A stretch of 32,614 bases of DNA from Candidatus Aquidulcis sp. (GTDB taxonomy: Bacteria > Chloroflexota > Anaerolineae > UBA4142). Both the position numbers and the translations under genes were made by a program. Position 1 is the stretch's first letter. Each line of letters starts with the position of its first letter. Positions 18,023 through 28,946 of the stretch are shown here, piece by piece. The notes under the pieces are model-generated. The model saw only the letters and a program-made list of their open reading frames with translations, searched no databases and was not told the DNA's origin. Where the stretch lies: positions 8,228 through 40,841 of the forward strand of contig DYJA01000060.1 in assembly GCA_020723345.1 (NCBI GenBank), in the 5' to 3' direction.

Positions 18023-18051
18023 TTGACAGGGGAACATTTTTTCCATATAAT
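18023..18051 (+). promoter_or_regulatory. Consensus sigma70 promoter of the first importer operon
   Basis: TTGACA (18023-18028), 17-bp spacer, TATAAT (18046-18051): an exact consensus match. Transcription should begin near 18058, leaving a leader of about 230 nt before the binding-protein gene. Confidence 0.9.
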
Positions 18052-18289: not shown

Positions 18290-20860
18290 ATGAAGAAAGT
18301 AACGTTCGTTTTCGTGCTGTTGATCATCGCGCTGTTGATCGCGTGCGCACCGACACCGACGCCGGTTCCACCGACCAAGGCGCCTGAACCGACCAAGGCA
18401 CCGGTTGCTCCGACCAGCGCGCCGCAACCCACCGCAGCCCCCAAACCGACCGAGGCGCCCAAGCCGACCACGGCACCCGCTCCCAAAGGCGCATGGGTGG
18501 ACGAGGTCGTGTTCTTTGAAGAACCCGACAGCAACAAAGCCGTCAGTATGATCGAAGCCGGCGATATGCACCTCTTTGGCTTTGGCATTTCGGATGGCAA
18601 GATCTATGCCAAGTTGAAAGACTCGAAGAACGCGGCGTATGATTTTTCCTACGGCTCCACTTCGGAATTGACGTTCAACCCCGCCGGTCCCACGTTCAAA
18701 GACGGTCGCCTCAATCCGTTCTCGGTCCCCGCGATTCGCGAAGCGATGAATATGCTCGTTGATCGCAATTACATCGCCAAGGAAATTTACCTCGGCATGG
18801 CGATGCCGATGTACACCGTGATCAACCCGGTCTTCCCCGATTACGCCAAGACGGCGGATGTCGGGCGCGCAATCGAGATCAAGTACGCGTACGATGTCAA
18901 GAAAGCGAAAGAAGTCATCGACGCAGAAATGAAGAAACTCGGCGCGGAACTCGTCAGCAATGTGTGGAACTACAAAGGCGCACCGGTCAACATCATCCTC
19001 ATCATCCGCACCGAAGATGAGCGCCGTTTGATTGGCGACTATGTCGCGAAGCAGTTGGAGGACATTGGTTTCAAGGCGGACCGCCAATACAAAACCGCCG
19101 CCGAAGCGACGCCGCTCTGGATGACGGGTGATCCGGCGGAAGGCAAGATGCACGTCTACACCGGCGGCTGGATCAGCACCGTCGTCAGCCGCGATCTGGC
19201 GAACAACTTTACCTACTACTACACCGCGCGCGGACGCTCCGACGCGCTGTGGCAGGGCTATAAAGTCTCGCCGGAATTCGACAAGATTTCCGAACGCCTG
19301 ACTCGCCGCGATTACAAAGACGTGGCGGAACGCACGCAAATGTTCGCGGAAGCGATGAACCTTTCGATGAAAGATTCCGCGCGCGTGTGGCTGGTCAACC
19401 GCCAGAGCTTGAATGTCCATCGCCCCGAAGTCAAAGCCGCCGTGGATCTGGCGGGCGGCACTTCTGGTTCCTGGCTCTGGCCCAACACGATCAACATCGG
19501 CGGCAAGCCCGGCGGTACGGTCCGCTTCGGCGCGCCGAGCATCCTGAGCACCGTCTGGAACCCGATCGGCGGCAGCAACTGGATTTACGACTCGATGATC
19601 TTCCGCGCGACCGGTGGGCTTGCCACCGTCTCCGACCCCTACACCGGACTTTATTGGCCCTATCGCATGGACAAAGCCGATGTGACGGTGAAGCAAGGTC
19701 TGCCCGTTGGCAAATCGCTCGATTGGGTCACACTCAACTTTGCGCCCACCATCGAAGTACCAAAGGACGTGTGGATTGACTGGAATCCCGAAAAGCAGCA
19801 GTTCATCACCGTCGGCGAAAAGTACACCCAGACCTTGACCGCCAACACCAAAACCGTCATGACCTACAACAAGGATCTGTTCAAGAACAAGACGCACGAC
19901 GGCAATACGCTGTCGGCGGCTGATTTCGTGCTGGGGATGATCCTGACCTTCGACCGACCGAATGACAAGAGCGCGATCTTCGACGAAGCGCCGGTTCCTG
20001 CCTTCAAGTCCTTCCTCACCAATTTCCGTGGCTGGAAGATCGTCTCCAAGGATCCGCTGGTCATCGAAGCGTACAGCGATACCTTCTACCCGGACGCCGA
20101 GGAGATCGTACGGAACCGGGATGTCTACCCGTACTATGCCCAAGGTATCGGTCTGTGGCACACAATGTCACTCGGAGTCCAAGCCGAAGCCGCCAAGGAA
20201 CTCGTCTTCACCAGCGCCAAAGCCACCAAACTCAAAGTCGAACAGACGAATTACATTGGCGGGCCCAGTCTCAAGGTCCTCGAAAAGTACCTCGCCTCGT
20301 CCACCGACAAGAGTTACATTCCGTACGCGCCGACGATGGGACAATTCGTCACGGCAGCGGAGGCAAAGGCGCGCTACGAGAACCTGGGCAAGTTCTACAA
20401 GGATCGCGGTCACTTCTGGGTCGGCGATGGTCCATTCTATCTCCACCAAGTCCGCTCGACGGAAAAGATCATCACGCTCCGCAAGTTCGCCGACTTCCCT
20501 GATCCTGCGGACCGCTGGCTGCGCTTTGCCGAACCCCAGATTCCCGCCGTGGCTGTGTCTGGTCCTAGCCGCGTCACAGTCGGGCAAGTTGCCGATTTCT
20601 CAGTGAAGGTGACGTTCAAGAACCAGCCATACGCCACCAAGGATCTCGACTTTGTCAAGTTCCTCATCATTGACGCCACCGGCAATCTCGCCTTGACGGC
20701 GAATGCCAAAGCCACCAAAGATGGCGAGTGGGCGGCTTCGCTTACCGCGGATCAAACGAATAAACTCGCCGCGGGCTCCAACCGCATCGAGGTGATCGTC
20801 GTCTCCAAGTTGGTTGCCAAACCCACGTTCGAGTCCATGTCGTTCGTAACGATCAAGTAA
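18290..20860 (+). CDS. Oligopeptide-type ABC binding lipoprotein with permuted SBP_5 domain
   Basis: An 856-residue extracellular binding protein of an Opp/Dpp-type importer. Signal peptide ends at lipobox LIAC (C19), then a Pro/Thr linker to about residue 66. Family motifs appear out of order: first those usually in the C-terminal half (VDEVVFFEEPDS..MIEAGDMH 70-94; IREAMNMLVDRNYIAKEIYLG 149-169; YDVKKAKEVIDAEMKKLG 201-218; GKMHVYTGGW 285-294; PEVKA 379-383), then those usually N-terminal (GGTVRFGAPSILSTVWNP 408-425; YTGLYWP 451-457; HDGNTLSAADFVLGM 536-550; VGDGPFYLHQVRSTEKIITL 711-730). A C-terminal Ig-like beta domain covers about 752-856. ATG 18290 has AGGAGG 8 nt upstream. A longer frame from 18263 lacks a signal. 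The ligand is unknown. Confidence 0.92.
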   Translation: MKKVTFVFVLLIIALLIACAPTPTPVPPTKAPEPTKAPVAPTSAPQPTAAPKPTEAPKPTTAPAPKGAWVDEVVFFEEPDSNKAVSMIEAGDMHLFGFGISDGKIYAKLKDSKNAAYDFSYGSTSELTFNPAGPTFKDGRLNPFSVPAIREAMNMLVDRNYIAKEIYLGMAMPMYTVINPVFPDYAKTADVGRAIEIKYAYDVKKAKEVIDAEMKKLGAELVSNVWNYKGAPVNIILIIRTEDERRLIGDYVAKQLEDIGFKADRQYKTAAEATPLWMTGDPAEGKMHVYTGGWISTVVSRDLANNFTYYYTARGRSDALWQGYKVSPEFDKISERLTRRDYKDVAERTQMFAEAMNLSMKDSARVWLVNRQSLNVHRPEVKAAVDLAGGTSGSWLWPNTINIGGKPGGTVRFGAPSILSTVWNPIGGSNWIYDSMIFRATGGLATVSDPYTGLYWPYRMDKADVTVKQGLPVGKSLDWVTLNFAPTIEVPKDVWIDWNPEKQQFITVGEKYTQTLTANTKTVMTYNKDLFKNKTHDGNTLSAADFVLGMILTFDRPNDKSAIFDEAPVPAFKSFLTNFRGWKIVSKDPLVIEAYSDTFYPDAEEIVRNRDVYPYYAQGIGLWHTMSLGVQAEAAKELVFTSAKATKLKVEQTNYIGGPSLKVLEKYLASSTDKSYIPYAPTMGQFVTAAEAKARYENLGKFYKDRGHFWVGDGPFYLHQVRSTEKIITLRKFADFPDPADRWLRFAEPQIPAVAVSGPSRVTVGQVADFSVKVTFKNQPYATKDLDFVKFLIIDATGNLALTANAKATKDGEWAASLTADQTNKLAAGSNRIEVIVVSKLVAKPTFESMSFVTIK

Positions 20861-21053: not shown

Positions 21054-22190
21054 ATGGCATCCGGAGTTCTAACCGAGAAAGCATTATCCCGACCGAAAAT
21101 CGGTATTCGCATTCCCGACACGCTAGCGCGCATCGGCAAGTACGTGCTTTATCGCAGTGTTGCCTTGTTCGTGACGGTCGTGATCGGGGTGTACCTGACC
21201 GTCCTGATCGTGAATATGGGCGGCTATTTGGACACCATCCGCATCGCGCAAATCCGCGAGCAAGTCGGCGCAGGTGTGCTGGGCGATCCCACGCTGCAAA
21301 CCCTTCCGCCGAGTGAATTACGCAAGCACATTGATGAGTTGGTCGTGCTCGAAGTGCAACGCCTGCGCCTCGATCAACCTTTCTTCGTGCGGAGCGTGGA
21401 CTATCTTGTGGACGCGCTGACGCTGAATCTGGGCCGCGCCGAGATCATGACGAGCAACAGCGGTTCGAAGCAAGTGCGCTTGATCTTGCTAGAACGAATT
21501 CCGGCGACGCTCTTGCTTTCCGCCTCCGCGAACTTGTCGCTCTTTTTTGGCGCGATCTTTGTCGCACTGTTCCTGTCCCGCCGCTATGGAAGTTGGCTCG
21601 ACCGGATCGTGATCGCGATGGCGCCGAGTTCAACCGTCCCCGCGTGGTTCTATGGCATCTTTCTCATTCTTATCTTCGCGTCCTTGCTCCACATCCTACC
21701 CTTTGGCGGGATGGTGGCAGCGCCGCCCCCCGAGTCCACATTTGACTACACCCTCAGTTTGCTCAAGCACATGATCTTGCCAGTCAGCGCGATTATTCTC
21801 CACGGCATCTTCGTCAGTATCTACCAATGGCGTACCTTTTTCCTCATCTACTCTAGCGAGGATTATGTGGATATGGCGAAAGCCAAAGGACTGACCGCGC
21901 GTACGATTGAACGACGGTACATCTTGCGCCCGACGCTGCCGCCCATTGTCACCTCGTTCGCCTTTACGCTCATCTATCTCTGGCAAGGCGCGATCATTTT
22001 GGAAACCGTCTTCGCTTGGCCCGGCGTGGGACGTTTGCTCTATCAAGCGATCAGCATTTTCGATGTGCCGGTGATCGTCGGCAACGTCGTGTTGATCGCG
22101 TACCTCTTGGTGACGACCGTCTTCTTGCTGGATATTATCTACGCCCTACTCGATCCGCGCGTCAAAGTGGGCGGGGAGCGTCGCGCATGA
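21054..22190 (+). CDS. ABC importer permease, DppB/OppB type
   Basis: A 378-residue inner-membrane permease of the BPD_transp_1 family. The EAA cytoplasmic loop that contacts the ATPase is EDYVDMAKAKGLTARTIERR plus YILRPTLPP (269-297), and the end LETVFAWPGVGRLLYQAI ... YALLDPRVK is typical of DppB. It is longer than the usual 305-340 residues: an N-terminal tail of about 30 residues and a stretch between the first helix and the LGRAEI segment (about 57-125) that includes a hydrophilic helix (SELRKHIDELVVLEVQRLRL). Start ATG 21054 has AAGGAGGG upstream. The stop TGA shares ATGA with the next gene. Forms the channel with the 22187 protein. Confidence 0.95.
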   Translation: MASGVLTEKALSRPKIGIRIPDTLARIGKYVLYRSVALFVTVVIGVYLTVLIVNMGGYLDTIRIAQIREQVGAGVLGDPTLQTLPPSELRKHIDELVVLEVQRLRLDQPFFVRSVDYLVDALTLNLGRAEIMTSNSGSKQVRLILLERIPATLLLSASANLSLFFGAIFVALFLSRRYGSWLDRIVIAMAPSSTVPAWFYGIFLILIFASLLHILPFGGMVAAPPPESTFDYTLSLLKHMILPVSAIILHGIFVSIYQWRTFFLIYSSEDYVDMAKAKGLTARTIERRYILRPTLPPIVTSFAFTLIYLWQGAIILETVFAWPGVGRLLYQAISIFDVPVIVGNVVLIAYLLVTTVFLLDIIYALLDPRVKVGGERRA

Positions 22191-23539
22191 AAGTCCCAGG
22201 TCCTCTCAAAGAACTGACGCATTACCGCTCCGCTGTTTTCGGGTTGTTGATCATCGGTTCACTGATCGCGCTGGCGATTTTCACAGTCGTGACGATTCCT
22301 TACGACGAAGCCATTCAGCGTTGGCGCGCGGGCGAGGAAATGTGGGGCGATTATCCCCGCAACGCCGTCCCAGATTGGTTTACGCTCTTCGCCGGCAATA
22401 AACTCCCCAAGACGCTCATTTTGAGCAGTCTTGATGGAAGTGTTCGCAAAGAATCCCAAGCCGTCGCGGACGATATGCGGACAGCGGATATGAAATTCAC
22501 ATTCGACTATACCTCCGACGGTTTTCCCAGCGAACTCAACCTCTTTTTGACCGGCAAGTCGGCACAAAAGAAACCGCTCGCGACGATGATCTGGAAAACG
22601 CCGGACGGCCGTACCATTCCACTCGGCGATGTGACGGTTGGCGTCGCCGAACGGTTTGCAATCTCGACGGATCAACGACTCTCGCTCAAACTCGACGGGC
22701 GCGCGCCGGAGGTAGGGTTGTTTGCGCAGCCGGGCACGACCGCGAAAGGGATGACCCCCGTCGTGCAAAAAGGGAAATACGAACTGCTCGTCGAGGGACT
22801 CACGTTTGAAAAGGATTCAACGCTGGACGCCAAACTGGTCGTCTACGGCCAGGCGTACGGGTGGGCGGGCACCGATCATCGCCGGCGCGACATTTTGCTC
22901 GCGCTGCTGTGGGGCACGCCGATTGCGCTCGCGTTCGGTTTCCTCGCGGCGGTCGGTTCGACACTGACCACATTCGCGATTGCCGCGATCGGCGCGTGGT
23001 TTGGCGGGTGGGTGGACGCGACGATCCAACGCCTCACGGAGATCAATTCGGTCTTGCCGACGCTACCCATTCTCATTCTCGTCGGCACGTTTTACACGCG
23101 CAACATCTGGGTCATCTTGGGGATCGTCATCGCGCTCGGCATTTTCAGTTTGGGCATCAAGACCTATCGCTCGATGTTCATCCAAGTCAAGGAAATGCCC
23201 TACATCGAAGCGGCGCATGCGTATGGCGCAGGCAACTTGCGCATCGTCTTTCAATACATGATGCCCAAGATCGCGCCTGTGCTCATCCCCTCGTTTGTCA
23301 CCTTGATTCCCAGTTTCGTCTTTCTCGAAGCATCGCTTGCGCTGCTGGGACTGGGCGATCCGTTGTTGCCCACCTGGGGCAAAGTGATCAACGAGGCGTA
23401 CACCAATGGCGCGCTCTACAAAGGGATGTACTACTGGGTCTTGGAACCCGCCGCGCTCTTGATGCTGACCGGACTCGGCTTTGCCGTCGTCGGTTTTGCG
23501 CTGGATCGCATCTTCAATCCACGGTTGCGGGAGTTGTAG
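22187..23539 (+). CDS. ABC importer permease, DppC/OppC type, with large extracytoplasmic insert
   Basis: A 450-residue permease; DppC proteins usually have 270-320. The first helix (AVFGLLIIGSLIALAIFTVV, about 16-35) and the C-terminal core (GTDHRRRDILLALLWGTPIALAFG from 228; EAA loop YIEAAHAYGAGNLRIVFQYM 339-358; LEASLALLGLGDPLLPTWG 379-397) are normal. Between them residues about 41-225 form a mostly beta-rich block (SELNLFLTG, MIWKTPDGRTIPLGDVTVG, KYELLVEGLTFEKDSTLDAKLVVY) that must lie outside the membrane, where the usual protein has only a short loop. Start ATG 22187 overlaps the previous stop (ATGA), indicating coupled translation; the longer frame from 22016 is a shadow of the upstream gene. 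The insert could dock the unusual binding protein. Confidence 0.95.
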   Translation: MKVPGPLKELTHYRSAVFGLLIIGSLIALAIFTVVTIPYDEAIQRWRAGEEMWGDYPRNAVPDWFTLFAGNKLPKTLILSSLDGSVRKESQAVADDMRTADMKFTFDYTSDGFPSELNLFLTGKSAQKKPLATMIWKTPDGRTIPLGDVTVGVAERFAISTDQRLSLKLDGRAPEVGLFAQPGTTAKGMTPVVQKGKYELLVEGLTFEKDSTLDAKLVVYGQAYGWAGTDHRRRDILLALLWGTPIALAFGFLAAVGSTLTTFAIAAIGAWFGGWVDATIQRLTEINSVLPTLPILILVGTFYTRNIWVILGIVIALGIFSLGIKTYRSMFIQVKEMPYIEAAHAYGAGNLRIVFQYMMPKIAPVLIPSFVTLIPSFVFLEASLALLGLGDPLLPTWGKVINEAYTNGALYKGMYYWVLEPAALLMLTGLGFAVVGFALDRIFNPRLREL

Positions 23540-23541
23540 GA

Positions 23542-24510
23542 ATGGACAAACCGATTCTCAACGTCGAAAATCTGTACCTGCATTTCCGCGCGACCAAAGG
23601 GATTGTCCAAGCCGTTGACGATGTAAGTTTCGATCTCCAACGCAATGAAGCCATCGTTTTTCTGGGAGAATCCGGCTGCGGCAAAACTACCCTTGCCAAA
23701 GCGATTCTGCGCCTCCTCCCGCGCAACGTCCACAAGTATACCGGCAAAGTATATATGGACGATACGAATTTGATGGAATTGGATGACGAACGCTTTCGCC
23801 GCGAAGTGCGCTGGGTCAAAATGTCGATGGTCCCGCAAGCGGCGATGAATTCGCTCAATCCCGTCATTCGCGTCGGCGATCAGGTCGCAGAGCCAACGGA
23901 GGCGCACTTTGGCTTGAAGAAAGAGGCGCTTGCCCAGGCACGCGAAGTCTTTCAACGCGTCGGCGTGCCGGTGGATTTCATGAGTCGTTACGCGTTCGAA
24001 CTGAGCGGCGGGATGCGCCAGCGCGTCGCGATCGCTATGGCGCTCGTCACCAGTCCCGACGTTGTCATCCTGGACGAACCAACGTCTGCGCTCGACGTGC
24101 TGACCCAGGCGAACATTATGAACGTGCTCAAGCGTATCAAGAAAGAAACCGAGACAAGTTTCATTCTGATCACGCACGACATCTCGACCTCCAGCGAACT
24201 CGCGGATCGCGTCGCCGGAATGTACGCCGGACAAATCATCGAGTTGAACGACGCCGAACATTTCTTCTCGACGCCGCTGCATCCGTACTCGCAAAAACTG
24301 ATGGCGAGCGTGCCGACGCTGCACCAAACCAAAAAACTCGAATTCATTCCCGGACAGCCGCCGAGTCTCATCAATCTCCTGCCCGGTTGCCGCTTTGCGC
24401 CGCGCTGCCCGTCCAAATTCGAGAAATGCGCGCAAGACCCACCGCTGATTGATATGGGCGAACGCCGCAAGGTCAAGTGCTGGCTGTACGCGAACGGCAA
24501 GGAGAAATAG
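23542..24510 (+). CDS. ABC importer ATPase, DppD/OppD type
   Basis: A 322-residue cytoplasmic ATPase that powers uptake together with the next gene product. Walker A GESGCGKTT (42-50), Q-loop region MSMVPQAAMNSLNP (94-107), signature LSGGMRQ (154-160), Walker B VVILDEP (174-180), switch H212. The C-terminal oligo_HPY extension contains PGCRFAPRCP...KC...KVKCW with four cysteines (283, 289, 296, 313), the pattern reported to bind an iron-sulfur cluster in some DppD/OppD proteins. Start ATG 23542, 2 nt after the previous stop, with GGGAG about 9 nt upstream; the frame extended to 22861 is not credible. Confidence 0.96.
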   Translation: MDKPILNVENLYLHFRATKGIVQAVDDVSFDLQRNEAIVFLGESGCGKTTLAKAILRLLPRNVHKYTGKVYMDDTNLMELDDERFRREVRWVKMSMVPQAAMNSLNPVIRVGDQVAEPTEAHFGLKKEALAQAREVFQRVGVPVDFMSRYAFELSGGMRQRVAIAMALVTSPDVVILDEPTSALDVLTQANIMNVLKRIKKETETSFILITHDISTSSELADRVAGMYAGQIIELNDAEHFFSTPLHPYSQKLMASVPTLHQTKKLEFIPGQPPSLINLLPGCRFAPRCPSKFEKCAQDPPLIDMGERRKVKCWLYANGKEK

Positions 24511-24512
24511 AC

Positions 24513-25514
24513 ATGCCCGCCAACACACCTTCCCCCAACAATGGCACCTTGCTGTCCATCCAAAACCTCCACACCTGGTTTGAACTACGCAAGTGGGGCT
24601 TTGGGCGCGCCGGCTATGTGCGCGCGGTCGACGGCGTGAATTTTGACTTGGGTTACGGCGAAGCCATCGCGTTCGTCGGCGAAAGCGGATGCGGCAAGAG
24701 CACGCTCGCCAAAACCATGCTCGGCATTCACCGCCCCACCAAAGGCGATGTGATTTTCCAGGGCAAGAAACTCAACGCGTTTAGTTCCCAAGAGATGCAG
24801 TGGTATCACTCCCAGGTGGGCTATGTGCAACAAGACCCCTACGGCGCGCTGCCGCCGTTCATGAATGTTCATCGCATCTTGTCCGAACCACTACTCATCA
24901 ACAAAGTCGCCGACAAAGATGAACGCGAACAGCGCATTCGCGATGTGATGACCGAAGTCAAGATGACGCCGCCGGACGATTTTCTGCAAAAATTTCCGCA
25001 CATGCTCAGCGGCGGACAGCAACAACGCGTCGTGATTGCGCGCTCGATGATCATGCGCCCCAAACTGATCGTCGCGGATGAACCGGTCTCGATGCTCGAC
25101 GCGTCGGTGCGCGTGGAAATTCTCATGCTCCTGCGCGCGCTCCAGCAAAGCCACAACCTCGCGGTCAGTTATATCACGCACGACCTTTCCACCGTTCGCT
25201 ATTTCTCCGAACGCATCTTTGTCATGTACGCGGCAAGAATCGTGGAAACCGCGCCCGTAGACGATCTGCTGCGCGAACACTTGCATCCCTACACCCAGGC
25301 ACTGATGCTGGCGATTCCCGATCCCGACGCGAAAAACGCGCTCACACTCAAAGAAGTCCCGCCGGGGGAACCGCCCAGTCTCATCAATCCGCCGCCGGGT
25401 TGCCGATTCCATCCACGTTGCCCGCACGTCATCAAAGGACTCTGCGACACCCAGGAGCCGCCGGCGTTCGAGCCCCGACCGAAGCACTTTGTCGAGTGCT
25501 GGCTGTACAAATGA
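24513..25514 (+). CDS. ABC importer ATPase, DppF/OppF type
   Basis: A 333-residue partner of the 23542 ATPase. Walker A GESGCGKST (56-64), Q-loop YVQQDPYGALPPF (104-116), signature LSGGQQQ (165-171), Walker B LIVADEP (185-191), switch H223 in YITHDLS. C-terminal oligo_HPY segment PPGCRFHPRCPHVIKGLC and a final VECWLYK. Start ATG 24513, 2 nt after the preceding stop, with AAGGAG 9 nt upstream; the stop TGA shares ATGA with the following small gene. May also energise the second permease pair at 28961-30835, which has no ATPase nearby (inference). Confidence 0.96.
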   Translation: MPANTPSPNNGTLLSIQNLHTWFELRKWGFGRAGYVRAVDGVNFDLGYGEAIAFVGESGCGKSTLAKTMLGIHRPTKGDVIFQGKKLNAFSSQEMQWYHSQVGYVQQDPYGALPPFMNVHRILSEPLLINKVADKDEREQRIRDVMTEVKMTPPDDFLQKFPHMLSGGQQQRVVIARSMIMRPKLIVADEPVSMLDASVRVEILMLLRALQQSHNLAVSYITHDLSTVRYFSERIFVMYAARIVETAPVDDLLREHLHPYTQALMLAIPDPDAKNALTLKEVPPGEPPSLINPPPGCRFHPRCPHVIKGLCDTQEPPAFEPRPKHFVECWLYK

Positions 25515-27236: not shown

Positions 27237-28946
27237 ATGATAAAAAAACCAACGATCTGCCTTGCGTCGCTCGTCGCGATTGTTCTGCTCGCGGCGTGCG
27301 CCGCTCCTGCGCCTACTCCTGTCCCACCCACCGTCGCGCCGACGATTGTTGCCGCGCCGCCGCCTACACCCGCGATGGTTTCGCCCACGCAAGCGCCCAT
27401 CGTCGCGCCGACAGCCGCCGCGTCGCGCGGCGGTGAACTAAGAATCGCCACGACCACTGACGCGGTGACCCTGCATCCGTACAAACGCACCGATTCCGCG
27501 TCCGGCGGGTACATCGGTCGGATGTTCACCGGTGCTTTGTGGCGCTACAATCCGGAAACACTCGAACCCGAACCATTCATCGCCAAAGCGTGGAAAGTTG
27601 CCGCCGATCAAAAAACGATCACCTTTACTTTGAACGAACTGAAATGGAGCGACGGCAAGCCCTTGACCGCCTTCGATTATCAATGGACATTCGAGCAGGC
27701 GATGAAACCGGAAAACAAATGGCCCTATCGTTCGGATCCGGAAAAGAACATCGTCACCTACAAAGCGCTGGACGATAAGACGCTGGAGATTGCGATCAAA
27801 GAAGCCAAGCCGCTGCCGGTGCTGCTGGACAAAGTAGATCTCATCACGCCGCTGCCCAGGCACGTCTGGGAAAAGTACGATTGGAACGATCCGACCAAGA
27901 ACCCGGAAATCATGCAGCCCACCGTCGTCAGCGGAATGTATTTGTTGAAAGAATGGAAGCGCGACGATCACGCGACCTTCAGCCGCAACGACAATTATTT
28001 CCGCGGCTCGCCCAACATCGAAACGATCACGTACCGCATCGTGCCGAATACCTCCGTCTCGCTGCAAATGCTGTTGAGCGGCGAAGTGGATCAGTCGGCG
28101 ATGAGCGACAACGACTTCGACAAAGCCAAAGCCAGCGACAAACTGAATTTGTACGAATGGGATCCGGCTGCCGCATCGTGGGATTACATTGGTTTCAATC
28201 TCCGCCGCGCGCCGAACAACGATGTCGAATTCCGCCACGCGATTTCCTACGCCATCCCGCGCGACTTGATCGCGCAGAAAATTTACAACGCGCTTCGCAA
28301 GCCGATCTACTCCATCTTCCCGCCAACCTCGTGGGTCTACAATCCGAATGTGCCCAAGTACGAGTACAACATCGAAACCGCGAAAGCGACGCTCGACAAA
28401 GCCGGCTATAAATTGGACGCGAACGGCAAACGACTCGGCAAAGACGGCAAACCGCTCAAGTTGAAATTGCTGCACGAGACGCCCGCCCCGACGCGCGAGA
28501 AAACCGGTTTGGTCATGCAAGAGGAACTCGGCAAACTTGGCATTGACGTGGAAATCGTGCCGCTCGAATGGGGCGCGTTCCTGAACGCGGTCAAGAAAGA
28601 GCCGAACGATTGGGATCTCGACATCCTCGCCTGGAGTGTCGGCATCGAACCCTCCGGCATCCGCGACATTTGGAGTGAAGCGACCATTCCCGATCTCAAC
28701 AGCGTCGCCTACATCAACAAAAACCTGGAAGCGCTGTGGGATCGCGGCGAAAAGGAATTCGATCAAGCCAAGCGCAAAGTCATCTACCAAGAAATTCAAC
28801 AAGTCATCAGCGGTGATTCCCCGTACGTTTTCTTGACGTACCGCAGCGGCTGGTCGTTCCTGAACAAACGCGTCTCGTCCAACCCCGTGACCCGGCTAGG
28901 CATCGCGTACGATTTCCAACGGTGGTTCATCACGCCTGGCAAGTAG
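27237..28946 (+). CDS. Oligopeptide-type ABC binding lipoprotein (SBP_5), canonical order
   Basis: A 569-residue extracellular binding lipoprotein. Lipobox LAAC (C21), Pro/Thr linker to about residue 62, then an SBP_5 domain with motifs in normal order: GGELRIATTTDAVTLHPY, LKWSDGKPLTAFDYQWTFEQ, VVSGMYLLKEWKRDDHATFS, the LQMLLSGEVD segment, FRHAISYAIPRDLIAQKIY, KYEYNIETAKATLDKAGYKLD, and a DWDLDILAWSVG segment. Such proteins bind peptides, nickel-chelates, sugars or other small ligands; this one cannot be assigned. ATG 27237 has AAGGAG 8 nt upstream and a consensus promoter. It is clearly paralogous to the 30861 protein (shared AYDFQRWF/AYFPEQWY end, LYEWDPAA/LYEWSPAA, YEYNIETAKATL/YDYNIDTAKATL). 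First gene of the second importer cluster. Confidence 0.95.
   Translation: MIKKPTICLASLVAIVLLAACAAPAPTPVPPTVAPTIVAAPPPTPAMVSPTQAPIVAPTAAASRGGELRIATTTDAVTLHPYKRTDSASGGYIGRMFTGALWRYNPETLEPEPFIAKAWKVAADQKTITFTLNELKWSDGKPLTAFDYQWTFEQAMKPENKWPYRSDPEKNIVTYKALDDKTLEIAIKEAKPLPVLLDKVDLITPLPRHVWEKYDWNDPTKNPEIMQPTVVSGMYLLKEWKRDDHATFSRNDNYFRGSPNIETITYRIVPNTSVSLQMLLSGEVDQSAMSDNDFDKAKASDKLNLYEWDPAAASWDYIGFNLRRAPNNDVEFRHAISYAIPRDLIAQKIYNALRKPIYSIFPPTSWVYNPNVPKYEYNIETAKATLDKAGYKLDANGKRLGKDGKPLKLKLLHETPAPTREKTGLVMQEELGKLGIDVEIVPLEWGAFLNAVKKEPNDWDLDILAWSVGIEPSGIRDIWSEATIPDLNSVAYINKNLEALWDRGEKEFDQAKRKVIYQEIQQVISGDSPYVFLTYRSGWSFLNKRVSSNPVTRLGIAYDFQRWFITPGK

Follow-up and report, generated by a model that had tools for sequence, protein, structure and literature searches.

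Among the binding proteins of ABC importers we found one published case of a natural permutant, TpMglB-2 (Tp0684), a tethered lipoprotein described as a circularly permuted glucose-binding protein of 'Type Ic / Cluster Bc' (PMC4990184). In this protein only strands of the N-lobe have been moved to the C-terminus, and a fourth hinge crossing has been added (PMC4990184). TpMglB-2 is a Type I, cluster B sugar binder, whereas the protein analysed here belongs to cluster C, the SBP_5 proteins, for which no report of a permuted member was found in the open-access literature. It is encoded in a stretch of 32,614 nucleotides from Candidatus Aquidulcis sp. (in the following, the window). With TpMglB-2 (PMC4990184) it shares a natural circular permutation and the form of a tethered lipoprotein, but here a cut in domain I divides the chain into two parts of roughly the same size. 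Its top fold matches are all cluster C binders (Z 20-30), TpMglB-2 is absent among the fold matches listed, and, judging from the model, membership in Type Ic / Cluster Bc is very unlikely.

The canonical cluster C proteins, such as AppA (1XOC), DppA (1DPP) and NikA, have the same three-domain fold and belong to the same PF00496 family as the window protein, and both neighbouring binding proteins of the window are of this canonical kind. The window protein differs from them in the place where its chain opens, in an enlarged domain II and in an extra Ig-like domain at the C-terminus. Its closest solved relative, by profile (E 6.8e-51) as well as by structure, is the archaeal oligopeptide permease A of T. 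kodakarensis (OppA, PDB 7FI3), which holds a pentapeptide and likewise has an enlarged domain II together with the motifs around it. However, 7FI3 is canonical in order, with the equivalent of half B (34-347) in front of that of half A (335-755), and has no Ig-like domain between the halves. All evidence presented here is computational and the structures are AlphaFold2 models; computation established the segment order and where the chain is cut, how the two halves fold, and that the order is conserved within an operon.

Segment order and fold of the window protein

The features of the locus are listed in Table 1. The ORF runs from an ATG at 18290 to a last stop base at 20860, with 856 codons translated, and the lipobox cysteine is nearly invariant in an alignment of 11 homologous sequences. 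Half A, the canonical C-terminal part, contains domain III in full, flanked by the last portion of domain I and by the C-terminal strand; half B, the canonical N-terminal part, comprises the start of domain I, the enlarged domain II and the GPF/Y strand. The Ig-like domain of the window protein is without any Pfam match, and in the homologue L034 a FlgD_ig match is weak and below cut-off. Upstream of the gene, the promoter-like site agrees with the sigma-70 consensus at 12 of 12 positions, one such site being found against 0.4 expected in the consensus scan.

Table 1. Coordinates of the permuted binding protein gene, its parts and the adjoining transporter genes (positions in the window)
Feature	Position	Strand	Basis or remark
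Permuted SBP_5 lipoprotein gene, 856 aa	18290..20860	+	ORF, Pfam, AlphaFold2
Lipoprotein signal peptide, lipobox LIAC, Cys19	18290..18346	+	Read from sequence
Pro/Ala/Thr-rich linker, residues 20-66	18347..18487	+	Disordered in AlphaFold2 model
Half A, residues 67-404	18488..19501	+	Canonical C-terminal part of SBP_5 fold
Half B, residues 405-745	19502..20524	+	Canonical N-terminal part of SBP_5 fold
C-terminal Ig-like beta domain, residues 746-856	20525..20857	+	Mostly beta in model
Promoter-like site TTGACA-17-TATAAT, ~240 bp upstream of SBP start	18023..18051	+	Predicted, position only
OppB-type permease	21054..22190	+	BPD_transp_1 E 3e-28; second gene of conserved operon
OppC-type permease	22187..23539	+	BPD_transp_1; ~190-residue insertion between TM1 and transport core
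OppD-type ATPase	23540..24510	+	ABC_tran and oligo_HPY
OppF-type ATPase	24477..25514	+	ABC_tran and oligo_HPY

PF00496 (SBP_bac_5) matches the window protein above its gathering cut-off (94.8 against 32.4 bits; E 7e-27) in two stretches, and the better one aligns residues 68-300 with profile positions 146-352, so that the protein begins with what is the second half of the profile. The best PDB sequence match, 7FI3, is swapped in the same manner (query 457-749 on chain 33-314, query 108-329 on chain 369-600). Both results bear out the initial annotation, which had noticed motifs of the second half of SBP_5 proteins in front of those of the first half; the ranges it gave for them, residues 70-385 and 405-730, are right within a few residues, as structural alignment locates the join at 406/408 and lets the fold begin at 64-67. 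It had also read the neighbouring binding proteins at 27237 and 30861 as normal in order, and as internal controls each of them gives one unbroken normal-order PF00496 stretch (profile 1-349 and 2-357, respectively). Since the second half precedes the first and the canonical segment order is absent, the window protein was filed as a permuted variant and not as an ordinary SBP_5 member; no NCBIfam model fits the whole protein.

A clear rotation signal requires profiles or 7FI3. Rotation of the single sequence raised its score against the HMM of normal SBPs from 63 to 68 bits, a small gain because domain II is enlarged and diverged, and this test was replaced by a profile-profile rotation in which 71 full-length homologues were compared with 22 normal-order SBP_5 proteins, all taken from the window or its loci. 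Without rotation, hhalign returned three out-of-order pieces (3-315 on 268-573, 464-542 on 140-205 and 639-673 on 228-261, with scores of 154.2, 45.5 and 29.7), whereas half B (405-745) placed before half A (67-404) yielded a single alignment of 420 columns with a score of 191.2 (E 6.5e-23), well outside what chance would give. When all rotations were scanned, the maximum was reached only for starts at residues 392-517, compared to 154.2 for the native start; this plateau is broad because the first ~115 residues of half B align poorly. The idea that the Ig-like domain is an insert inside normal-order proteins was rejected, as it has no profile match and its retention in the rotated profile breaks the single alignment.

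The AlphaFold2 model of the window protein (71 sequences) has a pLDDT of 90.7 and a pTM of 0.86, with residues 1-60 alone being disordered (pLDDT < 50). Used as a whole in Foldseek, it was matched over one half only (384 columns, TM 0.33 to 7FI3) because Foldseek keeps the chain order, and half B (residues 402-745) was therefore modelled separately, with a pLDDT of 94.7. In VIA-align, residues 64-406 of the full model superpose on 7FI3 335-755 (Z 26.9, rmsd 2.6, 340 aligned) and also on AppA 208-520 and DppA 202-507, so that the matches of half A run from domain I to the canonical C-terminus. The half B model superposes on 7FI3 34-347 (Z 30.0, rmsd 2.3, 297 aligned; Z 10.8 for the next best structure) and also on DppA 1-210 (Z 9.2) and NikA 2-190. 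Superposed separately, both halves thus occupy complementary, adjoining parts of the same canonical chains, and the cluster C fold with domains I, II and III is present in the window protein. The structural alignment sets the join at 404-408, the new chain start at 64-67 and the new domain end at ~745.

These matches also bear on the possibility that two independent half-domains or two degenerate SBPs were fused in tandem, each half being a separate domain, for which one could cite that 856 aa exceed the usual SBP length and that PF00496 matches as two separate stretches. However, each half aligns to one complementary part, the two parts adjoin with almost no overlap (DppA 1-210 and 202-507), and after rotation of the profile a single match replaces the three seen in native order, so that we regard such a fusion as extremely improbable. 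The initial annotation had named two outcomes as incompatible with its reading, halves that are complete domains and a non-SBP fold in either half, and both are absent here. Profiles and models together argue for a true circular permutation of the SBP_5 domain, which we consider almost certain.

Conservation, anchoring and the transporter operon

With the window family as query, every full-length homologue found has the permuted order: 93 homologous ORFs (loci L001-L092 and the window) are permuted and none is in normal order. Relatives of the source genome carry collinear orthologues. The permuted order is hosted by Chloroflexota, Bipolaricaulota/Acetothermia, Bacillota, Thermotogota and Neomarinimicrobiota MAGs and, on the archaeal side (Thermoproteota), by Bathyarchaeota, Caldarchaeum-like archaea and Sulfolobales, and the viral contigs searched contained no relatives of the window protein. 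On the sequences at hand, the permuted order is ancient and common to bacteria and archaea. The window stems from a 132-contig draft genome, and an assembly or binning artefact, for example a scaffold join within the gene, would be a conceivable source of an altered order; but the same order occurs in dozens of independently assembled genomes with 43-83% identity, including the isolate Bellilinea caldifistulae (L034), which leaves this explanation with a practically negligible probability. The circular permutation proposed in the initial annotation, along with the rotated alignment, structure prediction and orthologue search by which it might be checked, is hence supported by the profile rotation, by the structure of both halves and by the conserved order in homologues.

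Individual homologues depart from the layout of the window protein. Two orthologues of ~1000 aa (L010 and L011, genomes G014 and G018) have an extra insertion of ~100 residues near query residue 510, in half B. A frameshift near query residues 680-756 divides the gene of L008 / L019 into two ORFs, the Ig part being in the other frame, and reflects either an assembly error or a real break. A single ORF at L030:7783-11538 combines a Ser/Thr protein kinase domain (Pkinase E 2e-52) with a permuted SBP_5 domain downstream of it, which suggests a receptor kinase built on a permuted binder.

Besides, the initial annotation had supposed that the new N-terminus could alter which lobe is tethered to the membrane. 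This part was not supported. The canonical N-terminus of OppA lies within domain I, and the cut, at canonical ~202-210 (DppA numbering), lies in domain I as well, so the tethered lobe should be unchanged. In addition, the bacterial permuted members are, as read from their sequences, lipoproteins or plainly secreted, and those of archaea have a TM anchor as their last element, in many cases preceded by a coiled coil or a Thr-rich stretch. Since the anchor of these archaeal proteins, which share the permuted order, sits at the C-terminus, segment order is not tied to anchoring mode. Anchoring as the cause of the permutation is likewise unsupported, with N-terminal lipoproteins, plainly secreted proteins and C-terminal TM proteins all among the permuted members.

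The binding protein gene is followed by OppB-, OppC-, OppD- and OppF-like genes, and this order is kept in 61 of 80 loci, nearly all others being cut by a contig end. For OppD, the mechanical ORF starts at 22861 and the true start is probably near the end of the OppC gene. In one locus, two consecutive OppB-like genes stand behind the permuted SBP (L066:8427 and 9979). The OppC insertion (window 22322-22840, ~190 residues) recurs after TM1 with 182-209 aa in all 73 loci tested; it has no PDB sequence match and is possibly a family-specific docking domain. A role as a partner specific to the permuted SBP was rejected, as the normal-order protein of locus L190 also adjoins a long OppC.

Normal-order relatives and further permuted SBP_5 proteins

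Using the normal-order 7FI3 sequence (561 aa) as query in 121 genomes of the phylum of one archaeal carrier, 30 of 30 fetched loci were permuted, and the archaeal loci comprise 51 permuted (three pairs being the same gene) versus 2 normal ones. The normal-order exceptions seen are L190 (genome G153), with half B before half A, and L213 (genome G237), which is 79% identical to L190. The L213 match contains two in-frame TGA codons, due to a frameshift, an error or decay. L190 and the permuted L214 are 38% identical with their halves exchanged (L190 416-844 on L214 52-471, L190 33-393 on L214 453-781), and despite this exchange the signal peptide and the TM tail keep their terminal places. L190 heads a B-C-D-F operon, too.

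A smaller archaeal subfamily, A2 (L058, L192, L194-L196; Thermoproteota), came up together with further rotated SBP_5 proteins in a PF00496 scan of six carrier genomes. On the profile of normal-order proteins its members read 247-544 and then 55-247, with the cut at position 247 being that of the window protein; they have an extra domain after half B, and L058 has a TM end. In a maximum-likelihood tree of the rotated sequences (40 rows, 613 columns; root set by an outgroup), the permuted family and A2 stand apart from generic SBP_5 proteins, and 7FI3 and L190 are nested within the permuted clade on starred branches. The fewest order changes on this tree are three, and the starred branches force this number. 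A single clade of all permuted proteins was rejected (p-AU 0.00027), as was one clade of L190 and 7FI3 (p-AU 0.0012), and trees of half A and of half B each put L190 with the permuted L214-L218.

The half trees are relevant for the origin of the two halves as well. Anaerolineae genomes hold dozens of SBP_5 paralogues, and by recombination between them halves A and B could each have been drawn from another normal SBP and been joined the wrong way round. We consider this very improbable, for both halves of the main family share 7FI3 as closest solved relative and the half trees agree for L190 and 7FI3.

Although change counts on the tree cannot tell gain from loss, the three changes are read with some preference as one gain followed by two separate returns to the canonical order, in 7FI3 and in L190. 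This reversion is less sure than the permutation itself because the branches leading to 7FI3 (TK-OppA) and L190 are rather long and the composition of L190 deviates. Alternatively, their normal order might be ancestral in the subfamily and the permutation gained several times at one site, namely in the main bacterial/archaeal family, L219, L214-L218 and A2. The canonical order being that of ordinary SBP_5 proteins, the lack of an Ig-like domain between the halves of 7FI3 and independent permutation elsewhere in SBP_5 at other cut sites speak for such a history. It needs more changes on the tree than the minimum of three, however, and the permuted members agree on the cut site within a few residues, usually with a domain or tail after half B, so that we think repeated gain unlikely, if still worth keeping in mind.

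The independent cases are of two kinds. Type b (L114, L140-L146; Anaerolineae) reads 310-559 and then 55-310, with the cut at profile 310-314 just before FxDxRVRQA, and for L114 rotation lifts the score from 216 to 349 bits as one alignment. Genome G052 has a type b gene and, at a distance of ~5 kb, a normal-order paralogue that it matches with halves exchanged. A type b SBP and a normal-order paralogue, ~5 kb apart, flank one permease/ATPase set in L191 (1393-3387 and 7942-9912), a pair that is a candidate trace of local duplication. Type c (L099, L108, L120-L137) is cut at ~150-158, inside domain II, and was counted in 36 of 80 genomes of the window's class among the rows listed; rotation of its sequence failed to give a single HMM alignment, and its order rests on separate matches (159-549, then 53-150) together with Pfam. 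Some type c domains follow another binding domain in the same fusion protein, namely SBP_bac_3 in L126-L128 and Peripla_BP_6 in L120, and in L128 a haem-binding domain (CxxCH) stands in front of the SBP_bac_3 and type c fusion. In the tree, types b and c fall into separate SBP_5 clades of Anaerolineae away from the window family, and the simplest reading is therefore that SBP_5 was permuted at least three times independently.

Proposed origin, function and implications

For the window protein, we propose that the old termini (C-terminus at ~404, N-terminus at ~408) were joined by a few linking residues, Gly and Lys, that the chain was opened in domain I instead, after the GPF/Y strand and before DEVVF, and that the Ig-like domain was appended at the new C-terminus. 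A tandem gene duplication followed by loss of the outer halves would be the likely origin. A single event in a common ancestor probably gave the window family and the A2 subfamily their permuted order, and the normal order of T. kodakarensis OppA and L190 would then be a secondary return.

The window protein presumably serves a five-gene ABC importer of the Opp/Dpp type as its substrate-binding lipoprotein. Once folded, it should act as a normal cluster C Venus-flytrap binder, from which the ligand would be passed to the adjacent OppBCDF. By analogy, peptides, most likely oligopeptides, are the probable ligand, since a pentapeptide is bound in 7FI3, the closest solved relative, and the genes form an Opp/Dpp-type operon. 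Cluster C also includes sugar and metal-chelate binders, so this assignment of a ligand class is inferred rather than fixed.

The order swap explains why the protein is partially covered by Pfam, with the best stretch spanning 233 of 856 residues, and by fold aligners that keep the chain order, as in the Foldseek comparison with 7FI3. The fixed cut sites of these families represent ready-made permutants for binding-protein sensors. In a large family of bacteria and archaea most members are permuted, and because normal-order sequences with 38% identity to permuted relatives exist, homologous proteins allow one to test how a permutation is gained and reversed. Taken as a whole, the cluster C (SBP_5) fold seems, on balance, to have been re-opened repeatedly: three cut sites would stand for no fewer than three independent permutations, of which one is ancient and found across bacteria and archaea, and the canonical order would have returned at least twice. 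If this is true, 7FI3, the only solved member of the family, would look normal because its order has reverted.
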